Below are positions 646 to 19,310 of a stretch of DNA of 21,007 nt, piece by piece (position 1 is the first letter of the stretch; the number at the start of each line of letters is the position of its first letter). The position numbers and the translations under genes were made by a program. Under the pieces are notes generated by a model that had not been told where the DNA came from, ran no database searches, and saw only the letters and a program-made list of their open reading frames with translations. This stretch comes from a virus, in the IMG/VR virus record IMGVR_UViG_3300022725_000179, positions 1 through 21,007 of that record. One strand, written 5' to 3'.

Positions 646-2007
646 CTATAGTTTATCAAATACTGACCCCATACGAGGGCTAAACAAGCGATCATATGTC
701 TTGAGAAGAAAGTTATCTGTCATCCCCGCAATGTGATCACATACAACACGAGTGGGATCACTGCTTTTCTCGTAAACCTCTAAGGTGTCTTTGGGTAGGA
801 ATTTATCTGGCTCTGAACTTAAGGCTTCAAATACAGATACGACCATTTGTTGCCCCTTAAATTCTAAATGCTGAACATTGGAGCTAAATGTAACAGTTTC
901 TCTCACTACCCGTTTGAGAGCCTTCAGAAACTTCATTGGTTTTTCTGGTAATGAGGCCCGATATTTCAATAATGGCTCATCAAACTCTTCTAAGGTTGAG
1001 ATATTACAATTGGTAATCAGATAGCCAACCATTCTCCCAATGAACCTTTTTCGTTTACTTCCGTCGCCAAACAGCGCTTTGACAAAATATTCGTAAACAT
1101 CATTTCCAGATTCCTCACCGTACTTATTTTTTAAATGGGTTAAGAAACCGTCACAATCTTCTTCACTTACATGTTTACGAAAATCGTTTTCACTAATCAA
1201 TTTAAGGGAAAGTGTATCTTCTAAGTCATGTACTCCAAAACTGATATCATCAGCGAGGTCCATAATGCTGCAGTCAAATGATTTATGCTGAGCTTTGAAA
1301 TGTTCACCTTCCTTCTCCCTATAAGAAATGAATAGATCTCTATCACCTGCCGACAAGGGGTCTAAGATCCAATCAACAATATCTTTCTCGCTTTTCATAT
1401 AACACTTAGGTGGCTTGGACATACCCCTGTCAATAATCCGGATCGTAGTTGTGTTTTTATCAAGTTCAGGTGTCAGGTCTGGATTGGAGGCTATGTCGTA
1501 ACTGACTGGATATTTCAAAACACCAAGCAGCAATCGTCGAGTTAGGTTGGCGCCTGCATTGCTTGAGAACTTTTCAAGTTTGGACAAAATCCTGAGAGTT
1601 TGCCCATTGCCCTCAAAGCCACCCTCGGCTCTCATACAATAATTCAACGCGACCTCACCACCATGCCCAAAAGGTGGGTGCCCCAAATCATGACTAAGCC
1701 CGATAGCTTGGATCAAACTGGTGGCTGGTAAATATTCTATTGCAGGATGTTCTGCCATATGTTTCTCGAATTGACGTGTGATACCACCGGCAATTTGAGC
1801 TACTTCCATAGAGTGGGTAAGGCGAGTACGATAAAAGTCGCTATCCCCGAGGTTCAAGATTTGTGTTTTTCCCTGTAATCTTCGGAAAGATGCCGAGTGA
1901 ATAATACGTGCATAGTCGATGTCTGACATATCTCGCGCGTCTTCATCTTGGGGATTCCAGCCTTCTCGACGTGCATACCATTCGCTCATTTTTACTATCC
2001 GCTTCAT
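646..2007 (-). CDS. dGTPase-like HD-domain deoxynucleotide triphosphohydrolase
   Basis: Predicted to hydrolyse dNTPs, typically dGTP, to the deoxynucleoside and triphosphate in the cytosol. In 453-residue numbering the HD-domain ligands are visible: H65 in RTRLTHSMEVA, H106-D107 in GLSHDLGHPPFGHGGE, and the distal Asp in LADDISFGVHDLED (D253/254). The RRLQGKTQI segment near residue 42 is also typical of the dGTPase family, and the length fits the Dgt-like branch. A second ATG at 1989 (MSEWYARREGW) matches the usual family start better than the one at 2007; neither has a strong ribosome-binding site. The gene is visibly AT-richer than its neighbours, stands alone on the minus strand and is flanked by IS and recombinase genes. 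This fits a horizontally acquired cargo gene. Family members are known to restrict phages by depleting dGTP; a housekeeping role remains possible. Confidence 0.88.
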   Translation of the reverse strand: MKRIVKMSEWYARREGWNPQDEDARDMSDIDYARIIHSASFRRLQGKTQILNLGDSDFYRTRLTHSMEVAQIAGGITRQFEKHMAEHPAIEYLPATSLIQAIGLSHDLGHPPFGHGGEVALNYCMRAEGGFEGNGQTLRILSKLEKFSSNAGANLTRRLLLGVLKYPVSYDIASNPDLTPELDKNTTTIRIIDRGMSKPPKCYMKSEKDIVDWILDPLSAGDRDLFISYREKEGEHFKAQHKSFDCSIMDLADDISFGVHDLEDTLSLKLISENDFRKHVSEEDCDGFLTHLKNKYGEESGNDVYEYFVKALFGDGSKRKRFIGRMVGYLITNCNISTLEEFDEPLLKYRASLPEKPMKFLKALKRVVRETVTFSSNVQHLEFKGQQMVVSVFEALSSEPDKFLPKDTLEVYEKSSDPTRVVCDHIAGMTDNFLLKTYDRLFSPRMGSVFDKL

Positions 2008-2172
2008 ATTCTGATTTTCAATACACGCAATCTACCAAAATACTTTTGCGAGAAAAAATGAAAAATCGCACTTTCCACTGGACTTCTGTTGCCAATAGAG
2101 CGGTACTGTTGGTGGCTTTAAGGCCAGTGCTTGAAGGGAAATATCAATCTCTCAGGCCTTTGGGCAGTGGGA

Positions 2173-2193
2173 GCTTTTACATGATGTAAAAGC
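2173..2193. promoter_or_regulatory. 21-bp palindrome upstream of recombinase operon
   Basis: GCTTTTACAT-G-ATGTAAAAGC is a perfect 10-bp inverted repeat around one central base. It ends 21 bp before the DUF3489 start and 8 bp before its GGAGG ribosome-binding site. It has the form of an operator for a dimeric repressor. As RNA it would also make a hairpin just before the ribosome-binding site. No T-tract follows, so it is not a terminator. Confidence 0.6.
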
Positions 2194-2214
2194 CAAAACT
2201 GACGGAGGCCTGAT

Positions 2215-2448
2215 ATGGCTGCTCAAGCAAATAAATCGACTAAAACCAAGAAAGATACTGTCCTTGTTCTGCTCAAACGCAATCAAGGAGCCAGCGTTGC
2301 AGAAATTCAGAAATCAACCGGATGGCAACCTCATACCATTCGCAGTTTTATTTCTTTTACGGTGCGCAAGAAACTCCAGCTTGAGGTCACAAGCTCACTG
2401 ACCAAAAGCAACGTGCGTCGCTATCGCATTCAAAAGCAGGAGGGCTAA
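2215..2448 (+). CDS. DUF3489 small helix-turn-helix protein
   Basis: A 77-residue basic protein. After a Lys/Thr-rich head, residues 17-70 match the DUF3489 pattern: KKDTVLVLLKRNQGASVAEI, GWQPHTIRSFISFTVRKKL and a C-terminal RRYRI. The segment looks like a winged helix with recognition helix around WQPHTIRSFIS. A strong GGAGG lies 8 bp before the ATG. It is the first gene of a three-gene unit with DUF2924 and a large serine recombinase, an arrangement recurrent in alphaproteobacteria. The biochemical role is not established. DNA binding, for instance at the palindrome just upstream or as a recombination accessory factor, is inference. Confidence 0.85.
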   Translation: MAAQANKSTKTKKDTVLVLLKRNQGASVAEIQKSTGWQPHTIRSFISFTVRKKLQLEVTSSLTKSNVRRYRIQKQEG

Positions 2449-2451
2449 ATC

Positions 2452-2895
2452 ATGACCTCTTCTCTTGATCATATCGCAAACCTGGATGCGCAAAACCTAC
2501 GTGTCTTCTGGCATCAGGAGTTCGGTGTTGAACCGGCTCCACGCCTCGGTAAAGACCTAATGATACGGCTGCTATCATTCAAAGTGCAGGAGAAACAATC
2601 GAAGGGGCTGTCCAAACCGGCCCTTCGCAAACTGAATAGCTATAAGAAGCAATTTACCGAGAAGGGTAAAATTACTCCAACAGATAGTATTCGAATTAAA
2701 ACAGGAACCAAGCTGATCCGTGAATGGAATGGCAAAACGCATACAGTTTTGAAAACCGAACAGGGCTTTGAATATGAAGGGGAGTTTTTTTCATCACTTT
2801 CGAATATCGCCAAACAGATCACAGGAAGTCACTGGTCCGGTCCCAGGTTCTTTGGACTCAATAAGAAACCAACACCGCCGAGGGTATCATCATGA
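2452..2895 (+). CDS. DUF2924 family protein
   Basis: A 147-residue protein matching DUF2924. The N-terminal part reads LRVFWHQEFGVEPAPRLGKD and LMIRLLSFKVQE. The C-terminal core reads GTKLIREWNGKTHTVLKTEQ, GFEYEGEFFSSLSNIAKQIT and GSHWSGPRFFGL, a typical end motif of the family. It starts 3 bp after the DUF3489 stop behind an AGGAGGG site, and its last four bases overlap the recombinase start (ATGA). Translational coupling to the recombinase suggests it works with it, perhaps as a recombination directionality or DNA-binding accessory. The family has no proven function. Confidence 0.88.
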   Translation: MTSSLDHIANLDAQNLRVFWHQEFGVEPAPRLGKDLMIRLLSFKVQEKQSKGLSKPALRKLNSYKKQFTEKGKITPTDSIRIKTGTKLIREWNGKTHTVLKTEQGFEYEGEFFSSLSNIAKQITGSHWSGPRFFGLNKKPTPPRVSS

Positions 2896-4502
2896 CTAAG
2901 AAAATCGTTCGATGTGCCATATACACCCGCAAGTCCACGGAGGAAGGGTTGGATCAGACTTTCAACACCCTGCATGCTCAGCGGGAAGCCTGTGAATCCT
3001 ATATTCAAAGTCAGCGCCATGAAGGGTGGGTAACGTTGCCGGAGCTTTATGATGACGGAGGTTTCTCCGGCGGCAATATGGATCGCCCGGCTTTGAAAAA
3101 ACTACTCGCTGATATTGAAGCTGGATTAATTGATACGGTGGTTGTCTACAAAATTGACAGACTAACCCGCGCCCTTGCGGACTTCGCCAAAATGGTCGAG
3201 ATTTTCGACAATCCAGGTCATCCGGTATCCTTTGTTTCTGTCACCCAGCAATTCAATACAACGACATCTATGGGGCGATTGACCTTGAACGTACTTCTGT
3301 CATTTGCTCAGTTTGAACGCGAGGTGATCGGTGAACGGGTCAGAGATAAAATTGCGGCTTCCAAGAAGAAAGGGATGTGGATGGGCGGTCTTTTGCCGCT
3401 TGGCTACGATGTTGAAGATAAGCTTCTCAAAATCAATAAGCAGGAAGCCAAGACCGTTCGAGATATCTTTCAAACATACCTCAAACTAAAATCGGTTCGT
3501 GAACTCAAAGAGGAAATAGATAAACGCGGGATTGTCAGCAAGGTGCGCGTTTCCAAAGAAGGGAATACATCCGGCGGCAAACAGCTTGCCAGAGGTGCCC
3601 TTTATACGATTCTGCGAAACTCAACCTATATCGGCAAAATTCGTCACAAAGATAAGGTTTATGATGGAGAACATGAACCGATAATCGATATGGAACTTTG
3701 GCAACAGGTTCAAAACCTATTGGATGAAAACCAGGCACGACAGGATGGCAAAACCGATTGTAAGAACGGAAGCCTTCTGGCTGGTTTAATTTTTGATGCG
3801 GAAGGAAACCGCCTAACACCCAGCCATGCGGTGAAGAAAACTGCATCCGGCAAGAAACGTTATCGCTACTACATTTCCCGGCCATTGACGACAGGAACAG
3901 GAAAAGGCCTTCGCCTCCCAGCTACTGATATTGAGCAGATTGTTATTATCAATTTATGCGCTTACCTGAATGATCCCAGGAATATCTCTTCCCCAGAAGA
4001 ACTCGATGAGTACACTGAGTATGCAAACACCTTGAAGGATGACAGCAGCTTTAATCGTATATTCCTCCTCAAACAGCTTCTAGAATCTGTAATCGTCAAT
4101 ACTGCCCAAATCACTCTAAACATCAGAAAAGGCGACGACGTTGTCCCGATGACAGTCCCCGCTCGATTGAAACGATGTGGCCTGGAGATGAAAATGGTTT
4201 TAGGTGATACAGAACGAAAACCAGAGAACGATCCCGCTTTAATCAGAGTTCTCACTCAGGCTCACGTCATTTTCGACAAACTGACATCCACAGATCGCAT
4301 CAGCATCACAGAAATAGCTGATGCAGAGAAAGTCACGCCTTCCTACATCACACGCCTGTTACGCCTGACGTCACTTTCCTCGAGAATTCAGGAAGCCATT
4401 CTGACGGGAAAACAGCCACCTGAAATGACGGCAAATAAACTTATGAATTTGAAGGCGCTCCCAATTGAATGGTCAGAACAGGAATCTCTCCTCGGCATCT
4501 AA
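2892..4502 (+). CDS. Large serine recombinase
   Basis: A 536-residue site-specific recombinase. The N-terminal resolvase/invertase domain (about 5-150) begins RCAIYTRKSTEEG, with S15 as expected nucleophile. It contains the conserved arginine-rich KIDRLTRALADFAKM segment and the QFEREVIGERVRDKI long-helix motif. A recombinase domain follows (about 165-270: GLLPLGYDVEDK to STYIGKIRHKD). The region where such enzymes usually have a Cys4 zinc ribbon (about 290-340, NGSLLAGLIFDAEGNRLTPS) keeps the fold signature but has no CxxC pairs. The C-terminus carries a ParB-like helix-turn-helix (ISITEIADAEKVTPSYITRL). It probably served as integrase for the element whose remains lie to the left. It is co-translated with DUF2924 and followed by a strong terminator. 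Confidence 0.92.
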   Translation: MTKKIVRCAIYTRKSTEEGLDQTFNTLHAQREACESYIQSQRHEGWVTLPELYDDGGFSGGNMDRPALKKLLADIEAGLIDTVVVYKIDRLTRALADFAKMVEIFDNPGHPVSFVSVTQQFNTTTSMGRLTLNVLLSFAQFEREVIGERVRDKIAASKKKGMWMGGLLPLGYDVEDKLLKINKQEAKTVRDIFQTYLKLKSVRELKEEIDKRGIVSKVRVSKEGNTSGGKQLARGALYTILRNSTYIGKIRHKDKVYDGEHEPIIDMELWQQVQNLLDENQARQDGKTDCKNGSLLAGLIFDAEGNRLTPSHAVKKTASGKKRYRYYISRPLTTGTGKGLRLPATDIEQIVIINLCAYLNDPRNISSPEELDEYTEYANTLKDDSSFNRIFLLKQLLESVIVNTAQITLNIRKGDDVVPMTVPARLKRCGLEMKMVLGDTERKPENDPALIRVLTQAHVIFDKLTSTDRISITEIADAEKVTPSYITRLLRLTSLSSRIQEAILTGKQPPEMTANKLMNLKALPIEWSEQESLLGI

Positions 4503-4523: not shown

Positions 4524-4552
4524 GCCCTTTCTCCTACAGAAAGGGCTTTTTT
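4524..4552 (+). terminator. Rho-independent terminator of recombinase operon
   Basis: A 9-bp perfect stem, GCCCTTTCT / AGAAAGGGC, with a 5-nt loop followed by TTTTTTC, starts 21 bp after the recombinase stop codon. Confidence 0.9.
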
Positions 4553-4717
4553 CGTGCCTGAACCGTACCACCACTTTTTGCCACAGAGATAATTCGGATA
4601 TCTGGCCCACAATTCACTGTCTCAGGTCCGGTTCAAAAACGCCCAATGATGCACTGGTGTGACCCGTCATTCTATGTGGCACAAGGGGTATGGTGATCGG
4701 CATGGCGCGGTTAATCC

Positions 4718-7486: not shown

Positions 7487-9674
7487 GTGGTTTTCAGCAG
7501 CCGAACTAGCAGAATTTAATTTGCCGGAAATGCCTTCAACAGAAAGGGCAATACAGATCAAAGCCAAGCGTGAAGGATGGACTGCAAATGGTAAGGTTTC
7601 ACGTCGCAGATCAGGAAAAGGCGGTGGATATGAATATCATGTTTCACTTTTACCGACCAAAGCACGCAATCACCTGAGCGTTGAGCTTTACAAATCCAAG
7701 GCGACGGGTCCGGCATCGCTGATTGAACCGGCTGTTCAAACACCCGTTAACGAGGATTTAACGCCGCGCGATATGTTGCGCCGTGATGCCAAGATGGTGA
7801 TCCTTTCATGGCTGGATCATTTCCAAGCGCAAACCGGACTGGTTCTGGAAAGTGCCATGTTCAAGTTTGTCGATCTTTACAATGCGCGCGATCTGGATGC
7901 GGTACCGGGCTGGGTCTATGAAGCCACCAAGCAGGTTTCTGTGCGTAGCCTGAAACGCTGGCGCACCATGAAAAAGAACGGGGATGTCATGGCACTTGCC
8001 GGAAAGCGCGGTTTGCGCAAAGGCAACGGCCTTCTGGATCGTGCCGAAGGTGGACAGGTTGCCGAATATATCGCAGCCCTGATCGTCAACCAGCCGCACC
8101 TGAGTGCCGACCATGTGCGTGATCTTGTGAAAAATAAGTTTGGCGACAGACTGACGGTCGTTACCGATACCACCAAAGAGACCAAGGTTCGGGAAGTCCC
8201 GCCAATCCGCACATTCCAGCGTTTTATCAGCGCATGGAAAGAGGAACATGAAGAAGTCCTGGTCAAGATGACCGACCCGGATGCCTGGAAAAATAAATAT
8301 AAATTCCGTGGCGAAAATATGAACCATTGGGTGACCAAGCTGAACCAGCTTTGGGAGATTGATGCCTCACCTGCGGATGCCATGTTGGTGGACGGGCGTT
8401 ATTCCATCTATGCGGTTATTGATATTTACAGCCGTCGGATGATGGTTCTGGTTTCTAAAACACCGACGACTGCCGCCGTTTTACTTTTGCTGCGTAAGGC
8501 AATTTTGGCATGGGGTGTGCCGGACATTCTGAGAACCGATAACGGGTCGGATTTTACCTCTTACGAGTTCATTACGGCATTGAACAGTTTGCAAATCACA
8601 CCTGACCTTTGCGAGCCGTTTTCGCCGGAGATGAAAGCTTCTGTCGAGCGGACAATCGGAACGCTCCAGCGTGGTTTCATGCCCTTGCTGCCCGGTTTTA
8701 TCGGACATGATGTGGAAGATCGCAAGAAGATCGAAGCGCGCAAGACGTTTGCCCAACGCCTTGGAGAAAAGGATCAGGATATTTTCTGCGCGGACCTGAC
8801 GCAGGAAGAATTCCAAACCATGGTTGATGAGTGGTGTGCCAATAAATATGCCCACAAGGAACACTCCGGCATCAACAAGGAAACACCTTTTCAACGGGCG
8901 GCCAACTGGACGGCACCGATCAAGCGCATTGAAAACGAACGTGCCCTTGATCTGTTGCTCGCGCCGATTGCTGGCAAGGACGGGTATCGTACGGTCACAG
9001 CTAAAGGGATCCGGCTGGATGGGGCCTATTTCATGCATCCGGCCTTGCAGGCTGGCCAGCGTGTCTTTATCCGCCACGACCCGGAAGACATGGGCCGCAT
9101 CTATGTGTTTGGCGAAGAGCGTCAGGAGTTCATTTGCGTTGCCGAATGTCCGAAACGCGTTGGTGTCAATCCGGGTGATGCCGTTCGGGCGGTTCGGGCT
9201 GAACAGAAGCGCCGACTGGATGAAGAGATCAAGCCGCTCAAGCGTCAGATCAGCAATATGAAGCCACGCGATATGATTGAGGGTGTCCTGCGTCAGGCGG
9301 CCAAGAATGCTCAAAACGTCACAGAATTCCCCAAGGCCAGCACAGAACATACAACGCCTGATCTTAAGGCGGCAGCCGAGGCAACACGGATCAATCGCAA
9401 GCCTGCTGCGCGCGAATTGAACGATCAGGAACTCCAGCATCAAAAGGCGATTGAACGCGACCTTGCCAAAAAGCAAGCGGAGACTGTTGTCAGTATGCCT
9501 GAAAGTCCGAAGCACCGTTTCCAGAAGGCCTATCAAATCGAACAAATGATGGAACAAGGCCACGATATCGCTGCTGAGGATGCCAAGTGGCTGGTCGGGT
9601 ATGCGACCACGTCTGAATACCGATCACAAAAGAAAATGTTTGAGGATTTTGGCCTGAGCTGGTTGCAGGGCTGA
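7479..9674 (+). CDS. muA: Mu-type DDE transposase (MuA)
   Basis: A 731-residue transposase that cuts and joins the prophage ends into target DNA, for integration and replicative transposition. Residues 1-60 form the Mu N-terminal winged-helix (FSAAELAEFNLPEMPSTERA, then GWTANGK), which binds the internal activation sequence in Mu. The RNase H-fold core has D295 in LWEIDASPAD, D354 in LRTDNGSDF and E390 in KASVERTIGTLQRGF, a complete DDE triad. A beta-barrel domain follows (about 500-560: GYRTVTAKGIRLDGAYFMHP to RIYVFGE), then a long charged helical tail that in Mu contacts MuB and ClpX. It is longer than Mu A (663). The start overlaps the preceding gene. Confidence 0.95.
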   Translation: MSEWFSAAELAEFNLPEMPSTERAIQIKAKREGWTANGKVSRRRSGKGGGYEYHVSLLPTKARNHLSVELYKSKATGPASLIEPAVQTPVNEDLTPRDMLRRDAKMVILSWLDHFQAQTGLVLESAMFKFVDLYNARDLDAVPGWVYEATKQVSVRSLKRWRTMKKNGDVMALAGKRGLRKGNGLLDRAEGGQVAEYIAALIVNQPHLSADHVRDLVKNKFGDRLTVVTDTTKETKVREVPPIRTFQRFISAWKEEHEEVLVKMTDPDAWKNKYKFRGENMNHWVTKLNQLWEIDASPADAMLVDGRYSIYAVIDIYSRRMMVLVSKTPTTAAVLLLLRKAILAWGVPDILRTDNGSDFTSYEFITALNSLQITPDLCEPFSPEMKASVERTIGTLQRGFMPLLPGFIGHDVEDRKKIEARKTFAQRLGEKDQDIFCADLTQEEFQTMVDEWCANKYAHKEHSGINKETPFQRAANWTAPIKRIENERALDLLLAPIAGKDGYRTVTAKGIRLDGAYFMHPALQAGQRVFIRHDPEDMGRIYVFGEERQEFICVAECPKRVGVNPGDAVRAVRAEQKRRLDEEIKPLKRQISNMKPRDMIEGVLRQAAKNAQNVTEFPKASTEHTTPDLKAAAEATRINRKPAARELNDQELQHQKAIERDLAKKQAETVVSMPESPKHRFQKAYQIEQMMEQGHDIAAEDAKWLVGYATTSEYRSQKKMFEDFGLSWLQG

Positions 9675-9727: not shown

Positions 9728-10471
9728 ATGCACAATACGACACCAAACGTCAACCGCACCATTGCACCGCTCAAAAACGTGAGTTTATTCACCGCGCTTG
9801 TTGATCGTGTAATGAACCGTAGCCCGCATTTGCCGGGGATGGCGACCTTTCATGGGTTCTCAGGCTTTGGCAAGACTTTCTCGGCGACCTATGCGGCCAA
9901 CACCTATCGCGCCTATTATGTCGAGGTCGGGGAAAGCTGGACGAAGAAGAAGTTTTGCCAGTCTGTTCTGACTGAAATGGGTTTGAATGATCGTGGTACC
10001 ATTCCTGATCTGGTCGAACGGATCATTGAAGGGCTGGTCGAAGAAAACCGTCCGTTGATTATTGATGAATTCGACCATGTGGTGAACCGTCGCTATCATG
10101 AGACAATCCGCGAAATCCACGACAAGAGTCATGCCCCGATTATCCTGATCGGTGAAGAATTGCTGCCCAGCAACTTGAAAAGCATGTCCGAGCGTTTCCA
10201 TAACCGGATGCTGGACTGGGTACCTGCACAGCCAGCCGATATGGAAGACATCCGCCACCTTGCGCGGCTTTACTGTGAAAAAATTGAGATCGCAGATGAT
10301 TTGTTGAAGGATGTTGATCAGGCGTCTCAAGGCCGGGTACGCCGGGTTTGTGTGAACCTTGATCGGATCCGCGAGTTTGCTGTGACCAACGGGCTGGACC
10401 ATGTTGATCGTCAGGCTTGGAATGATCAGCCCCTATTCAAGGGCGAGGCCCCGCACCGGAGGGCTTCCTAA
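9728..10471 (+). CDS. muB: Mu-type AAA+ ATPase, transposition target factor (MuB)
   Basis: A 247-residue ATPase. The Walker A is GFSGFGKT (43-50) and the Walker B is PLIIDEFD (109-116). A sensor-like segment, APIILIGEELLPSNLKSMSE, and a C-terminal helical domain follow. MuB-type proteins polymerise on DNA in ATP form, deliver target DNA to the transposase and protect the element from self-insertion. The sequence is closer to the shorter AAA+ type found in many Mu-like prophages than to Mu B itself (312 residues), which has an extra N-terminal domain. A GAGGATT site precedes the ATG. The stop overlaps the next start by one base (TAATG). Confidence 0.92.
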   Translation: MHNTTPNVNRTIAPLKNVSLFTALVDRVMNRSPHLPGMATFHGFSGFGKTFSATYAANTYRAYYVEVGESWTKKKFCQSVLTEMGLNDRGTIPDLVERIIEGLVEENRPLIIDEFDHVVNRRYHETIREIHDKSHAPIILIGEELLPSNLKSMSERFHNRMLDWVPAQPADMEDIRHLARLYCEKIEIADDLLKDVDQASQGRVRRVCVNLDRIREFAVTNGLDHVDRQAWNDQPLFKGEAPHRRAS

Positions 10472-13828: not shown

Positions 13829-14523
13829 CTGCTAATCCAAAAAGATCAGACTATTGGCGCAAAATGAACGGTGCCATTCGGTCTGCCTGTGCCGCCCGCC
13901 AAATTGATGATGAATCGCGTCTGGCCTTGATCAAATCCGTAACCGGCAAGGATTCATCAACGGAGTGCTCGGCACAGGAGTTGCGTTCTGTTTTGTATAA
14001 AATTAATGGCACCGGCCCCCGTCCGCAAAAACGCTCAGGCGCAAAAAAGAAGCGGAACTTTGCTGACAAGGCTGTTCATTCAAAGGTTCGGGCACTTTGG
14101 TTGACCCTTTATCACCTCGGCGCAACCGACAGCGCCAGTGACGAAGCTCTGGAAGCGATGGCCAAACGGGTGTGCCTCGGTGGCAAGGGCAATGAAAACA
14201 TCGTGTTCAAGCTGTCTTCAATGGACAGTAAAGGGGCGTTTAAACTGATCGAAGCCCTGAAGGCCATGTGCAGCCGGGCCGGTGTTCGTTGGGAAAATTA
14301 CAGAACCTTGCGCGGAATCGTAACGAATGACCGGGCAAGGGTCATTGAGGCCCAATGGCAAAAGCTGCACCCGCGATCCGGCTGGGGGCTCATGTTCATT
14401 GAAATCGGAAAGATTCTCAACCAGCCGATCCCGACTTCCCTTCTGCATATTCCTGACAGTGAAGCGGATCAACTCATTCAACATTTTGGAAAACTTATCA
14501 GAGAAGGAAAAGACAATGGCTGA
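13825..14523 (+). CDS. gemA: GemA/Gp16 family regulatory protein
   Basis: A 232-residue protein. The first 80 residues (YWRKMNGAIRSACAARQIDD) and the core IVFKLSSMDSKGAFKLIEAL match the Mu Gp16/GemA family. In Mu, GemA alters host gene expression and DNA topology during early infection. The basic RPQKRSGAKKKRNFADKAVH linker suggests nucleic-acid binding. The C-terminal part (ARVIEAQWQKLHPRSGWGLM) is common in alphaproteobacterial versions. It overlaps the methyltransferase by four bases and the next gene by eight. Confidence 0.88.
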   Translation: MTANPKRSDYWRKMNGAIRSACAARQIDDESRLALIKSVTGKDSSTECSAQELRSVLYKINGTGPRPQKRSGAKKKRNFADKAVHSKVRALWLTLYHLGATDSASDEALEAMAKRVCLGGKGNENIVFKLSSMDSKGAFKLIEALKAMCSRAGVRWENYRTLRGIVTNDRARVIEAQWQKLHPRSGWGLMFIEIGKILNQPIPTSLLHIPDSEADQLIQHFGKLIREGKDNG

Positions 14524-14761
14524 AATTGGCGGCATTGCGGGTGATCATTTGCGCTCTTTCATCGAACGCATTGAACGTCTTGAAGAAGAGAAAGCTGGTC
14601 TGACGGCGGACATCAAGGATGTCTATGCCGAAGCCAAAGGCACCGGGTTCGATGTCAAGATCATGCGTCAACTCATCAGCCTACGCAAAATGGAAGAGCA
14701 TGACCGGAGTGAACAGGAAGAAATCCTTGATCTCTACAAACGCGCAGTGGGCATGGAATAG
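14516..14761 (+). CDS. DUF2312 protein
   Basis: An 81-residue coiled-coil protein: GDHLRSFIERIERLEEEKAG, then LTADIKDVYAEAKGTGFDVK, then IMRQLISLRKMEEHDRSEQE. This is the DUF2312 pattern, widely present in alphaproteobacterial chromosomes and phages. Its role is not settled; the KDVYAEAKGTGFD segment is the invariant part. The start at 14516 overlaps the gemA end and uses its GAGAAGGAAA as ribosome-binding site. Finding it supports an alphaproteobacterial host. Confidence 0.9.
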   Translation: MAEIGGIAGDHLRSFIERIERLEEEKAGLTADIKDVYAEAKGTGFDVKIMRQLISLRKMEEHDRSEQEEILDLYKRAVGME

Positions 14762-15071: not shown

Positions 15072-15263
15072 ATGGAACTCAAATTCAAATTCGATTTTGA
15101 CCAAAAAGTTAAAGTCAAAGTGTCAGGTGAAATCGGCACAATCGATAGCGTCTGCCAACACAAACGGACAAAAGAAACCAATTATTGCGTTTCATATAAA
15201 GCCGCCGATGGTCGCGCTGTCGATAAGTGGTTCTATGGAGATGAACTGGAAGCTGTTGTCTAG
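15072..15263 (+). CDS. Small beta-rich hypothetical protein
   Basis: A 63-residue protein alternating charged and hydrophobic residues (MELKFKFDFDQKVKVKVSGE, then IGTIDSVCQHKRTKETNYCV), with KWFYGDELEAVV at the end. The pattern is that of a small SH3- or KOW-like barrel, often seen as phage 'DKVKV...G.V......Y.V.Y......W..E.EL' proteins. An AAAGGAAA site precedes the ATG. It is the last gene before the 15291-15321 terminator. The function is unknown. Confidence 0.7.
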   Translation: MELKFKFDFDQKVKVKVSGEIGTIDSVCQHKRTKETNYCVSYKAADGRAVDKWFYGDELEAVV

Positions 15264-15290: not shown

Positions 15291-15321
15291 CCCCGCTCGG
15301 TTTCGACCGTCGGGGTCTTTT
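15291..15321 (+). terminator. Terminator closing the early operon (UUCG loop)
   Basis: CCCCG-CT-CGGT-TTCG-ACCG-T-CGGGG (15291-15315) forms a two-part stem with a stable UUCG loop, followed by TCTTTT. It lies 28 bp after the last small gene. The same hairpin design recurs exactly 232 bp later without the T-tract (15523-15548), so it is also the first part of a tandemly duplicated element. Confidence 0.8.
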
Positions 15322-15519
15322 GGGTGAGAGCGGCGGTGTGGTAGCGACACACAGCCTGACGAGGCCGAGGGGGAGATATTCTGAGCAAAGAAACCCCGCA
15401 CGATAGCTGAAACTGGGGGAGAGGTGATCACTCTCCAGCTCAGGAAGGTGTGCGATGTATGAGGAGGTTCAAATCCTTCCATTTCTAGCGGGAGTAGCGA
15501 CCCGCCCGTTCTTATCTTT
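15322..15519 (+). ncRNA. Structured RNA with tRNA-type T-arm, copy 1
   Basis: No coding signal is present. The region begins GGGTGAGAGCGGCG, shared with copy 2 at 15554. Several hairpins can be drawn: GTGTG-loop-CACAC with loop GTAGCGA (15336-15352, extended by GGC/GCC), GCCT/AGGC (about 15354-15365), GGAGAG/CTCTCC with loop GTGATCA (15418-15436) and GCGGG/CCCGC with a loop also containing GTAGCGA (15488-15505). At 15463-15479 lies a perfect tRNA T-arm, GGAGG-TTCAAAT-CCTTC. Its acceptor partner is uncertain: 15406-15412 pairs with TTTCTAGC with a bulge, and 15420-15426 pairs with 15480-15486 with two wobbles. The closing ends GGGTGA (15322-15327) and TCACCC (15520-15525) are complementary. 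It cannot be a normal tRNA, as no anticodon arm fits. Confidence 0.55.
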
Positions 15520-15522
15520 TCA

Positions 15523-15548
15523 CCCCCGTACAGTTCGGCTGTCGGGGG
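15523..15548 (+). repeat. Second copy of the UUCG-loop hairpin (232-bp tandem repeat)
   Basis: CCCCCG-T-ACAG-TTCGG-CTGT-CGGGGG is a strong hairpin without a following T-tract. It starts exactly 232 bp after the similar hairpin at 15291. The next shared motif, GGGTGAGAGCGNCG, has the same 232-bp offset (15322 and 15554). This shows a tandem duplication of hairpin plus tRNA-like unit, with heavy later divergence. Confidence 0.6.
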
Positions 15549-15556
15549 GCAAGGGG

Positions 15557-15707
15557 TGAGAGCGTCGTGCCGGAGCGGTTTATCGGACACCCCGTGGGAT
15601 GCAATTGCCGAGGACGTAAAGGGACCGTACAGCCCGTTACGTCTGGCCCCTGATACAGGTGATTTGTGAAAAGCAAGACGCAGGTTCAAATCCTGCCGAC
15701 GCTCTCA
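15557..15707 (+). ncRNA. Serine-type tRNA-like RNA with insert in place of the anticodon loop, copy 2
   Basis: The ends TGAGAGCGTCG (15557-15567) and CGACGCTCTCA (15697-15707) pair perfectly for 11 bp; the inner seven act as an acceptor stem. Next comes TG, a 3-bp D-stem CCG/CGG (15570-15572 with 15584-15586) and the loop GAGCGGTTTAT with the usual GG pair, then A at position 26, all as in tRNA-Ser. CACC (15588-15591) can pair with GGTG (15658-15661) as an anticodon stem. Instead of a 7-nt loop there are 66 nt containing a 7-bp stem GACGTAA/TTACGTC (15613-15619 with 15637-15643) topped by GGG/CCC. A variable arm (TTTG/CAAG, 15663-15677) and a perfect T-arm GCAGG-TTCAAAT-CCTGC (15680-15696) follow. 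CCA is not encoded (TCA). Confidence 0.65.
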
Positions 15708-15751: not shown

Positions 15752-16579
15752 ATGTCTAAGAAAACAGAACTGAGGCCAGTCCAGCCCCTCCCGATCCCGG
15801 ACGTTGTGCCGGGGGATATTTCTGAGCACCGGCCTGATTTCAAATGGGTAAAACCAGAAAGTTTGAGAGTCGAAGGGCGTTATCAACGTGACCTATCGCG
15901 TCGTTCGGTCAAATTGATCAAGCATGTCGTTACCGTTTGGGATTGGGGACGAATGAAACCGCCAATCTGTGCTTACAACGAGGCGAGCGAACTGGTTGTT
16001 ATTGATGGCCAGCACACTGCGATCGCGGCGGCCAGTCATCCGGCACTGGATGAAATCCCGGTGATGATCGTTAAAAACTCTGAGATCAAGGGCCGTGCCA
16101 GTGCTTTTATTGGTCACAACAAAGATCGTGTCCAGGTCACAGCCCCTCAACTCTATTATGCCTCACTTGAAGCCGGTGACGATGTTGCTGTTGCATTAAA
16201 TGAAGCGTGCGAACGGGCTGGCGCAGTTATCCGGCGCAATCCGCCTCCTAATGGAAACTGGAAAGTTGGTGAAACAGTTGCGGTCGGTGCTTTGCGCAAG
16301 GTCGTTGAGTTGAAAGGAAAGGCAGGAGGGTGTCGGGTTCTTAAAATATTGATGAACGCCAGACGTGCGCCGATTTCCGCCCTTGAGGTACAGACGGTGC
16401 AAGCTCTTTTGTATTGGCCACAATGGAAAGGCGAATTTGAGGATCAGGCACTGTCACGCACGATCCGGTCTCTGTCGGCGGAGGAATGGCAACAACGCGC
16501 CAAACAGACCGCTGCGCCCCGACAATCCATCAAGGAGTCTCTGGCCGTCCAATGGTTCAGAAAGGTAACGGATTCATGA
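15752..16579 (+). CDS. ParB/Srx-fold domain protein
   Basis: A 275-residue protein. The region about 30-115 has the ParB/sulfiredoxin-like fold signature: VKPESLRVEGRYQRDLSRRS, then LVVIDGQHTAIAAASHPALD (DGQHTA at 85-90, replacing the GERR/DGQHR of relatives), then IPVMIVKNSEIKGRASAFIG. The rest is helical. It resembles the DUF6551-type proteins of phages and integrative elements. Family relatives bind DNA and use CTP, or have other nucleotide-dependent activities; which applies here is unknown. The start at 15752 is chosen for AGGAGGAA 7 bp upstream; an ATG at 15719 has no such site and lies 12 bp after the tRNA-like RNA. It is the first gene after that RNA and may share its transcript. Confidence 0.75.
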   Translation: MSKKTELRPVQPLPIPDVVPGDISEHRPDFKWVKPESLRVEGRYQRDLSRRSVKLIKHVVTVWDWGRMKPPICAYNEASELVVIDGQHTAIAAASHPALDEIPVMIVKNSEIKGRASAFIGHNKDRVQVTAPQLYYASLEAGDDVAVALNEACERAGAVIRRNPPPNGNWKVGETVAVGALRKVVELKGKAGGCRVLKILMNARRAPISALEVQTVQALLYWPQWKGEFEDQALSRTIRSLSAEEWQQRAKQTAAPRQSIKESLAVQWFRKVTDS

Positions 16580-18009: not shown

Positions 18010-18520
18010 GAGCCTGATGGCTCTTGCGGTTCTTTGCGTGTCGTTGGTTGCCGGACTGGCAGCTTGTGACACAATCCGCGATAAAGCATTCGGCCCGGCT
18101 GAAACAGCCGATCTTCGTGCCTATCGCGCCTTTTTGATCTATGAAGGTTTGGCCACATTGGCCCAACCCTCTGAAGAATTCCGCAATGCAGACCATTCTG
18201 CCCGATCGGCGATCGAAAACTTGCGGGATGTTACCTTTAACGCTCAGGATACGACCTTGGCCCTTGACCAAACCCGGTCGGCCTTACGTCTTTATGCCGC
18301 CGCTCTGGCTACTAAAAACGGTATCAGTATCGTCGGTCTTGATCTAAAAACAGCCGTTTTCAAGCTTGCCACACAGGCCCCCAAACTGGGTAAGGAAGCG
18401 ATTCATGTGCGACGACAGATGCGCGCCCTTGATCAGGCTGGCCGGGATCCGACCGGAGATGAATGGCAAGAGATTCTGAGCCATGTTGATCAACTCCATG
18501 CCCAAATCCAAGGGGATTAG
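17993..18520 (+). CDS. Lysis-cassette lipoprotein
   Basis: A 175-residue protein with a type II signal peptide: KSIKSL, a hydrophobic core MALAVLCVSLVAGLAAC, and lipobox LAAC with C25 as the lipidated residue. The mature part is helical (AYRAFLIYEGLATLAQPSEE, then DQTRSALRLYAAALATKNGI). The start at 17993 follows AGGAG by 7 bp and overlaps the muramidase end. Its place next to the endolysin suggests an outer-membrane spanin-like or other lysis role, but it lacks a proline-rich Rz1 pattern. No family is recognised. Confidence 0.75.
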   Translation: MSKSIKSLMALAVLCVSLVAGLAACDTIRDKAFGPAETADLRAYRAFLIYEGLATLAQPSEEFRNADHSARSAIENLRDVTFNAQDTTLALDQTRSALRLYAAALATKNGISIVGLDLKTAVFKLATQAPKLGKEAIHVRRQMRALDQAGRDPTGDEWQEILSHVDQLHAQIQGD

Positions 18521-18521
18521 G

Positions 18522-19310
18522 ATGGTGGAAGCTTCACCCATGCTGATGGTCAGGGCGCGTCGCTATGCGTCTCTGGCCGAGCTGGCCTATGACGATAATG
18601 ATGTCGTCCACCTTGCCGCTCATGCCTATGGTTATTCAGGCCTTCATTTCTTTGATCGCGATGGTGTTCAAGCTTTCATGGTTCATGACGATGATATTGC
18701 GGTCGTTGTCTTTCGCGGAACCGAGCTGAAGGATCCACGCGACATCCTGACCGATCTCAAAATCCGCAAGCGTGATTTATCTGAACAAGGCCGTGTTGGC
18801 CGGGTTCATCGGGGCTTTTCACAAGCCTTGGATAAAATCTGGGATGATGTTGAGGTCGCGATCTCCAGCCTTAAGGGCAGTCAGTATTTGATGATGACCG
18901 GCCATAGTCTTGGCGGGGCCTTGGCTGTGTTGGCTGCAAACCGGATTGGAGAAAGTCGCCCTGTCGGTCTTATGACCTTCGGGTGCCCCCGTGTCGGTAA
19001 TGCCGCGTTTTGTGCGGACGTGGCCAATCGTCACCCCGGCCAGCACATGCGTTTTGTCAACGGGGCCGATGTTGTTCCCATGCTGCCGTTCTTCGCGCTT
19101 GGCTACCGTCATAGCGGTACCCTTTGTTACATCGATCGCAAAGGGAACGTATTGCTCAATCCGAACTTCTTTGAGGTCGCACTGGATCGGGCCATCGAAT
19201 TGGTGAGTGAATGGAAGGAAGGCCTTGAAGGCTTCTATCCGGTCCAAATGCTCAAGGATCATTCGATCAGGGAATATCGCCGTTTTCTAAATGGGGGGAA
19301 CAATGGCTGA
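18522..19310 (+). CDS. Class 3 lipase in lysis cassette
   Basis: A 262-residue alpha/beta hydrolase of the lipase class 3 family. The oxyanion region is AVVVFRGTELKDPRDILTDL and the nucleophile elbow is MMTGHSLGGALA with S129. The Asp is D183 in FVNGADVVPMLP and the likely His is H247 in LKDHSIREY. GCPRVGN is another family signature. There is no signal peptide. It is encoded between lysis and packaging genes with an AAGGGG site and overlaps the next gene, so it belongs to the phage unit. It may attack membrane phospholipids and help lysis or release; a superinfection or host-envelope role is also possible. Confidence 0.88.
   Translation: MVEASPMLMVRARRYASLAELAYDDNDVVHLAAHAYGYSGLHFFDRDGVQAFMVHDDDIAVVVFRGTELKDPRDILTDLKIRKRDLSEQGRVGRVHRGFSQALDKIWDDVEVAISSLKGSQYLMMTGHSLGGALAVLAANRIGESRPVGLMTFGCPRVGNAAFCADVANRHPGQHMRFVNGADVVPMLPFFALGYRHSGTLCYIDRKGNVLLNPNFFEVALDRAIELVSEWKEGLEGFYPVQMLKDHSIREYRRFLNGGNNG

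Follow-up and report, generated by a model that had tools for sequence, protein, structure and literature searches.

The tRNA-Like Element and Its Architecture

Can a tRNA body whose anticodon loop has been replaced serve a phage as an RNA in its own right, and if so, what might such an RNA do? The question is raised by positions 15557-15707 (+ strand) of the window, the whole 21,007-nt stretch of DNA analyzed here (IMGVR_UViG_3300022725_000179, positions 1 to 21,007), which belongs to a Mu-like virus of bacteria. At this locus, parts occur in the order and with the spacing of a class II (serine-type) tRNA (Table 1). The original prediction, made from the DNA alone, described an 11-bp end helix, a serine-type D-arm, a variable arm, a T-arm, and 66 enclosed nucleotides with a hairpin of their own, and refolding reproduced both these parts and their coordinates. 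Two further copies, designated L110 and L197 and described below, are compared with the window copy throughout.

The D-arm proper (15570-15586) has three pairs around the loop GAGCGGUUUAU, and the tRNA core and elbow contact residues (U8-A14, G15-C48, G18-U55, G19-C56, and U54-A58) are present in all copies as read from sequence; the element thereby has the canonical D/T elbow and variable arm of a class II cloverleaf, the variable arm (15663-15677) being weak, with two G-U pairs. Where an anticodon loop would be expected, the strands of the remaining anticodon stem (CACC, 15588-15591; GGUG, 15658-15661) enclose exactly 66 nt (15592-15657). This insert folds, in nested order, through GGG/CCC, GCC/GGC, GGACGUAA/UUACGUCU, and GGG/CCC, with GCC..GACGUAA..GGG and CCC..UUACGUC..GGC as the strands of its hairpin. 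The acceptor end departs from tRNA-Ser in all three copies: a 7-bp stem, G1-C72, G73, and 3' CCA are all absent, and the 3' end is buried within the extended 11-bp helix. CCA may be added to tRNAs post-transcriptionally. Within the insert loop, CCGUACAG (15625-15632) repeats the 5' half of the hairpin that precedes the element (CCGUACAG, 15526-15533); GUACAG is present in both the insert loop and the preceding hairpin of L197, which is not so in L110.

Table 1. Features in and around the tRNA-like element, in window coordinates.
Feature	Position	Strand	Basis or remark
First bulged GC hairpin, then UCUUUU (terminator-like), 3' of ORF 15072-15263	15291-15315	+	Fold
Unit A, upstream sibling	15321-15516	+	Shares GGGUGAGAGCG-CG and a perfect T-arm (15463-15479); body otherwise different
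Bulged GC hairpin immediately 5' of the element, no U tract	15523-15548	+	Fold
Acceptor-type helix (11 bp), 5' strand, UGAGAGCGUCG	15557-15567	+	Sequence, fold, C-G to U-A compensation in L197
U8-G9, serine-type D-arm CCG-GAGCGGUUUAU-CGG, A26	15568-15587	+	Alignment and comparison with tRNA-Ser(CGA)
Anticodon-stem remnant CACC/GGUG with 66-nt insert	15588-15661	+	Insert kept in three phages
Hairpin within insert: GCC/GGC, GGACGUAA/UUACGUCU, GGG/CCC, loop ACCGUACAG	15607-15647	+	Fold and alignment
Variable arm UUUGU-GAAAA-GCAAG	15663-15677	+	Invariant across all copies
T-arm GCAGG-UUCAAAU-CCUGC, perfect	15680-15696	+	Sequence; partial Rfam tRNA match (15676-15696), below threshold
Acceptor-type helix, 3' strand, CGACGCUCUCA, without CCA or G73	15697-15707	+	Sequence, alignment
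Next gene, DUF6551/ParB-like, RBS AGGAGGAAG, probable start 15752	15752-16579	+	Sequence
Mor-type late activator gene, also the downstream marker in L110 and L197	16953-17342	+	Comparison

Detection and Folding

As had been anticipated, tools for finding tRNAs miss the element: neither default ARAGORN nor Rfam at the gathering threshold gives a match to it. When introns are allowed, ARAGORN makes a single call in the window (15560-15706), with a 57-nt intron and the anticodon GAU, and none (0 matches) in 60 dinucleotide shuffles of the window. Because the same mode makes about five probably spurious intron calls in 1.19 Mb of relatives, this call alone is moderate evidence; the occurrence of the same structure on two independent contigs is decisive evidence for a real element. 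In relatives, one strict five-pair T-arm outside recognizable tRNAs is encountered in roughly every 0.8 Mb of strand; the window has two on the same strand, 217 nt apart (15463-15479 and 15680-15696).

The folding energy of the element is modestly better than that of shuffled sequences (z -2.97). The free minimum-energy fold of the window copy (-59.1 kcal/mol) is not tRNA-like, and enforcing the tRNA arms gives -54 to -56 kcal/mol; thus, tertiary contacts or proteins would need to favor the tRNA shape. The minimum-energy fold of the L197 copy does include the acceptor helix and the T-arm.

Conservation Among Phages

Gapped DNA patterns recovered copies on two IMG/VR contigs, both Mu-like, at 7665-7815 (minus strand) of L110 and 4300-4449 (minus strand) of L197, with identities to the window copy of 146/151 (97%) and 140/151 (93%), respectively. 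Genes common to the window and L110 have 42-53% protein identity, with 29-43% at four-fold degenerate sites, and the best genes common to the window and L197 have 79-85% protein identity, with 44-50% at four-fold degenerate sites. Conservation of the element therefore greatly exceeds that of unconstrained sites. Such a difference calls for purifying selection, for recent exchange, or for the two together; some of the identity could stem from recent transfer between phages. Because a near-identical RNA holds the same place in the gene order of two otherwise very different viral genomes, it is probably a functioning, non-translating RNA and not a broken gene.

Thirteen columns vary among the three copies, of which 10 are unpaired and three are paired (Fisher p 0.007). 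Two of these paired columns represent a single compensatory acceptor change in L197 (C-G to U-A), and the other leaves the L110 acceptor helix with a U-C mismatch. None of the 17 insert pairs changes among the copies, nor does any pair of the D-, T-, or variable arms; such invariance agrees with the fold without putting it to the test. The covariation of stems among homologues by which the original prediction was to be judged is thus borne out at one compensated acceptor pair; the L110 mismatch speaks against it, and most pairs do not vary. With three copies and one pair, the signal is thin, and shuffles reach the same level in 175 of 500 cases. The element can be described as a conserved structured RNA family of three members with one compensated pair.

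The element is known from these three copies. The many Mu-like relatives retrieved by searches anchored on MuA and the DUF6551 gene all lacked it, and a model search of the whole contigs of 77 of those relatives and of phage RS1 gave no further copy, its weak matches being ordinary tRNAs or chance. The element was likewise absent from INPHARED phages, plasmids, and ~420 alphaproteobacterial genomes in DNA searches, and a search with the neighboring small ORF yielded no additional copy. Pattern matches in L107, L109, L111, L112, and L193-L195 were rejected as copies, being real tRNAs or chance, and a dGTPase search aimed at placing the host gave no match.

tRNA-Ser Ancestry and Absence of an Anticodon

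A covariance model built from the three copies (R1) was compared with 385 alphaproteobacterial genomes. The best matches are all of ordinary tRNA length, and the best eight comprise six tRNA-Ser (GGA, CGA, and GCU) and two tRNA-Arg. Furthermore, the D-arm GUGCCGGAGCGGUUGAACGG is found in one alphaproteobacterial tRNA-Ser(CGA), the L110 and L197 copies having GUGCCGGAGCGGUUUAACGG. The model matches and the likeness of the D-arm indicate that the body of the element is of tRNA-Ser type, and we are highly confident that it is a selected, anticodon-less RNA of this type. The proposal of a tRNA-Ser-type body in which a structured insert takes the place of the anticodon accordingly holds, on the model matches, the L110 and L197 copies, and the excisions enumerated below.

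For these excisions, all single removals that leave at least four of the five anticodon-stem pairs and a seven-base loop were considered. A loop with U33 results only from the window copy, with the anticodon GAU (Ile); no loop with U33 is obtained from L110 or L197, and a serine anticodon is never obtained from any of the three copies. It had been suggested that the element might be an intron-bearing tRNA-Ser, in which 57-66 nt would be removed to give a decoding tRNA, and the ARAGORN call with its 57-nt intron would speak for this. Since no excision restores a serine anticodon, and GAU would place an isoleucine anticodon on a serine body, this reading is very unlikely, and the least probable of those considered here; the insert is also too short for a group I intron, which was rejected because there is no Rfam intron match and no restored anticodon. 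Decay of a host tRNA gene, or a chance fold, is also highly improbable. The window copy alone appears degraded (A22 to U, no CCA), and in the upstream sibling, unit A, just a T-arm and the 5' strand remain. Against this, copies with 93-97% identity occur in otherwise diverged phages, their substitutions respect the structure, the insert is conserved as well, and shuffled sequences give no ARAGORN matches, so that the earlier alternative of a decayed host tRNA-Ser is not supported.

Serine identity elements include G73 and G1-C72 (PMC9976931); since these and CCA are absent, charging is unlikely, and the element appears unable to decode. Coding on the antisense strand was rejected because a 1-nt deletion in the L197 copy shifts the frame, and the same deletion makes it less likely that a reading frame is conserved across the insert.

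Genomic Setting

Two features of the setting go beyond the original prediction: a tandem arrangement and a position a short way 5' of the Mor activator operon. In the window, the element is the later of two consecutive units, each headed by a GC hairpin. Such hairpins have, in all three phages, a 1-2 nt bulge at a constant site and an inner stem that changes; the architecture at 15523-15548 recurs in L110 and before unit A with an altered inner stem, and is conserved in L197. A U tract is present in two of five such hairpins (before unit A and before the L110 element), which are terminator-like. The window and L197 share a tandem hairpin-led pair in which the first units differ and the second is the conserved element, and in L110 the element comes directly after a single hairpin of the L197 first-unit type. 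The first hairpin-led unit of L197 (minus strand; reverse-complement 9877-10010) is ~107 nt long, starts with GGCGGUGAAAGC, and precedes the element; its hairpin is almost identical to that preceding the L110 element.

Unit A is about 190 nt long, is structured (z -2.4), and has the same hairpin leader as the element; no homologues of it were found. Unit A was rejected as a second insert-bearing tRNA, given that R1 does not match it, and no pairing forms between the 3' acceptor strand beside its T-arm and the 5' strand that it shares with the element. A hammerhead was also rejected for unit A: CUGACGA..GAAA is present, but the required stems are not formed.

No promoter was recognized upstream on the strand of the element, which is therefore probably co-transcribed. 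A start codon lies 24-45 nt 3' of the element in the three phages. The first downstream gene varies (DUF6551 in the window, an HTH protein in L110, and a GemA/gp16-like protein in L197), and a Mor/C-type late activator is encoded one to two genes past the element in all three. Unpaired segments of the element have no match of at least 9 nt to the phage's own messages, with the single exception of an 11-nt match of the variable arm, which falls within a gene.

Other genes of the window include those for a dGTPase-like HD protein and a large serine recombinase (646-4502), to the left of the Mu-like phage, which possibly constitute a defense or mobile island adjoining the prophage. A gene for a GapR-type DNA-binding protein (14477-14761) is also present in some relatives; GapR-type proteins are known from alphaproteobacterial chromosomes. 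A class 3 lipase gene (18483-19310) lies between the lysis and terminase genes, and is similarly placed in several relatives.

Proposed Mechanism and Alternative Explanations

Beyond the structure, tRNA-Ser ancestry, lack of a usable anticodon, conservation, and genomic position demonstrated here, the best explanation overall, which we consider to have about an even chance of being correct, is a phage noncoding RNA derived from tRNA-Ser that is processed by host tRNA enzymes and has the insert as its payload. A bacterial tRNA-Ser would have become a phage RNA that retained the acceptor/T stack, the D/T elbow, and the variable arm; its anticodon loop would have given way to a conserved folded domain of 66 nt, and its acceptor stem, which has no CCA, would have been lengthened to 11 bp. 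The element would be transcribed within a leader located after the early genes and ahead of the Mor operon, where host tRNA-processing enzymes that read the elbow (RNase P foremost) would recognize the body and cut or protect the transcript. Cleavage would free a stable RNA with the insert as the functional payload, and this product may act in trans, besides punctuating the operon. In bacteria, RNase P grips its substrate at the tRNA elbow and gauges distance along the acceptor/T stack; RNAs other than tRNAs are also accepted when they have this shape (PMC4919913, PMC4810234). Because the element retains the surface read by RNase P and sits at an operon joint, recognition by tRNA enzymes is judged most likely. 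In its tRNA-like fold the element has the shape of a candidate RNase P substrate, and the extended pairing of leader and trailer might hinder the enzyme. The combination of processing and payload is proposed tentatively, at somewhat below even confidence. More tentative again is the view that the element exemplifies a novel family of phage RNAs: a tRNA-Ser chassis would carry a functional domain, be excised by host tRNA enzymes, and act in trans on host translation, on tRNA-surveillance machinery, or on tRNA-targeting defense during the late switch.

A purely cis-acting role is nearly as likely as the processing mechanism, while itself doubtful: as part of the Mor operon's 5' leader, the RNA would control translation, stability, or read-through there, without being released. 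The distance of 24-45 nt to a start codon in three phages, the want of room for a promoter downstream of the hairpin, the position of Mor one to two genes later, and the resemblance of the tandem hairpin-RNA units to leader modules are all consistent with such a leader. However, leaders usually keep one gene, whereas the first gene here differs in each phage; a terminator-like hairpin upstream of the RNA makes an attenuation switch by the tRNA-like fold hard to arrange; and conservation of the complete elbow and variable arm exceeds the needs of a simple leader. Less likely, and in our estimation improbable, is a decoy acting in trans, an idea already raised in the original prediction, by which a tRNA-Ser mimic would titrate host SerRS, the CCA enzyme, or a nucleotidyltransferase toxin or defense enzyme of the MenT/AbiEii type. 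The conserved parts of the element are those that such proteins read, serine identity rests on the variable arm rather than the anticodon, and MenT3 likewise prefers tRNA-Ser by way of the variable arm (PMC9976931, PMC11541572). But MenT3 acts on the CCA end, which is missing here together with G73 and G1-C72; the variable arm is short and rich in G-U, the 3' end is hidden in the 11-bp helix, and a decoy would leave the conserved insert unexplained.

Comparison With Known RNAs

The element resembles tRNA-Ser in its D-arm sequence, D/T-loop contacts, long variable arm, T-arm, and best R1 matches, and differs in the missing anticodon loop, CCA, G73, and G1-C72, as well as in its 66-nt insert and 11-bp acceptor helix. 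It shares with tmRNA (SsrA) the top half of a tRNA without an anticodon and the replacement of the anticodon arm by extra RNA. However, tmRNA is alanine-type, is ~350 nt long, and has a tag frame and pseudoknots, none of which were found in the element. A tmRNA was rejected, as the original prediction had argued: there is no Rfam tmRNA match, no tag reading frame, and no alanine-type G-U pair, and ARAGORN tmRNA matches appear only at the 50% threshold, with 'tag not identified'. The tRNA-Other of Bacillus cereus is similarly a tRNA-like RNA adjoining a mobile island and with a role outside translation, but it has a Trp anticodon, has been tested for roles as T-box regulator and sRNA, and is not a phage RNA with an insert (PMC3399842). 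The element is by definition neither a tmRNA nor a tRNA-Other.

In YrlA bacterial Y RNAs, which are Ro-bound, a tRNA-like domain that is circularly permuted relative to tRNA is a module of a noncoding RNA. The element is alike in this modular use of a tRNA-like domain, but identity with YrlA was rejected, there being no Rfam match up to E 10 and no permuted domain. The tRNA-like structures of plant viruses occur in RNA genomes and are mostly aminoacylated. They are comparable as viral RNAs whose imitation of the tRNA elbow draws in tRNA-binding factors of the host (PMC4810234), whereas the element is predicted to lie in the leader of a DNA-phage transcript and has no CCA.

No description of the element was found in Rfam 15 or in the literature searched, in which there was also no phage example of an anticodon-less tRNA body with a folded payload; tmRNA aside, such natural RNAs are rarely described in bacteria. 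Because standard tRNA finders and Rfam miss the element, related phage RNAs may be overlooked. The element would also provide a direct test case of whether phages recruit RNase P or other tRNA enzymes through tRNA shape at the early-to-late switch. Additionally, a 125-kb viral contig (L196) contains, at 4546-4706 (+ strand), a class II tRNA body that seems unrelated; its acceptor helix has 10 bp, and a long structured sequence replaces its anticodon arm. This body scores 34.8 bits with R1, is called by ARAGORN only with an intron, and is possibly an independent instance of the same design.
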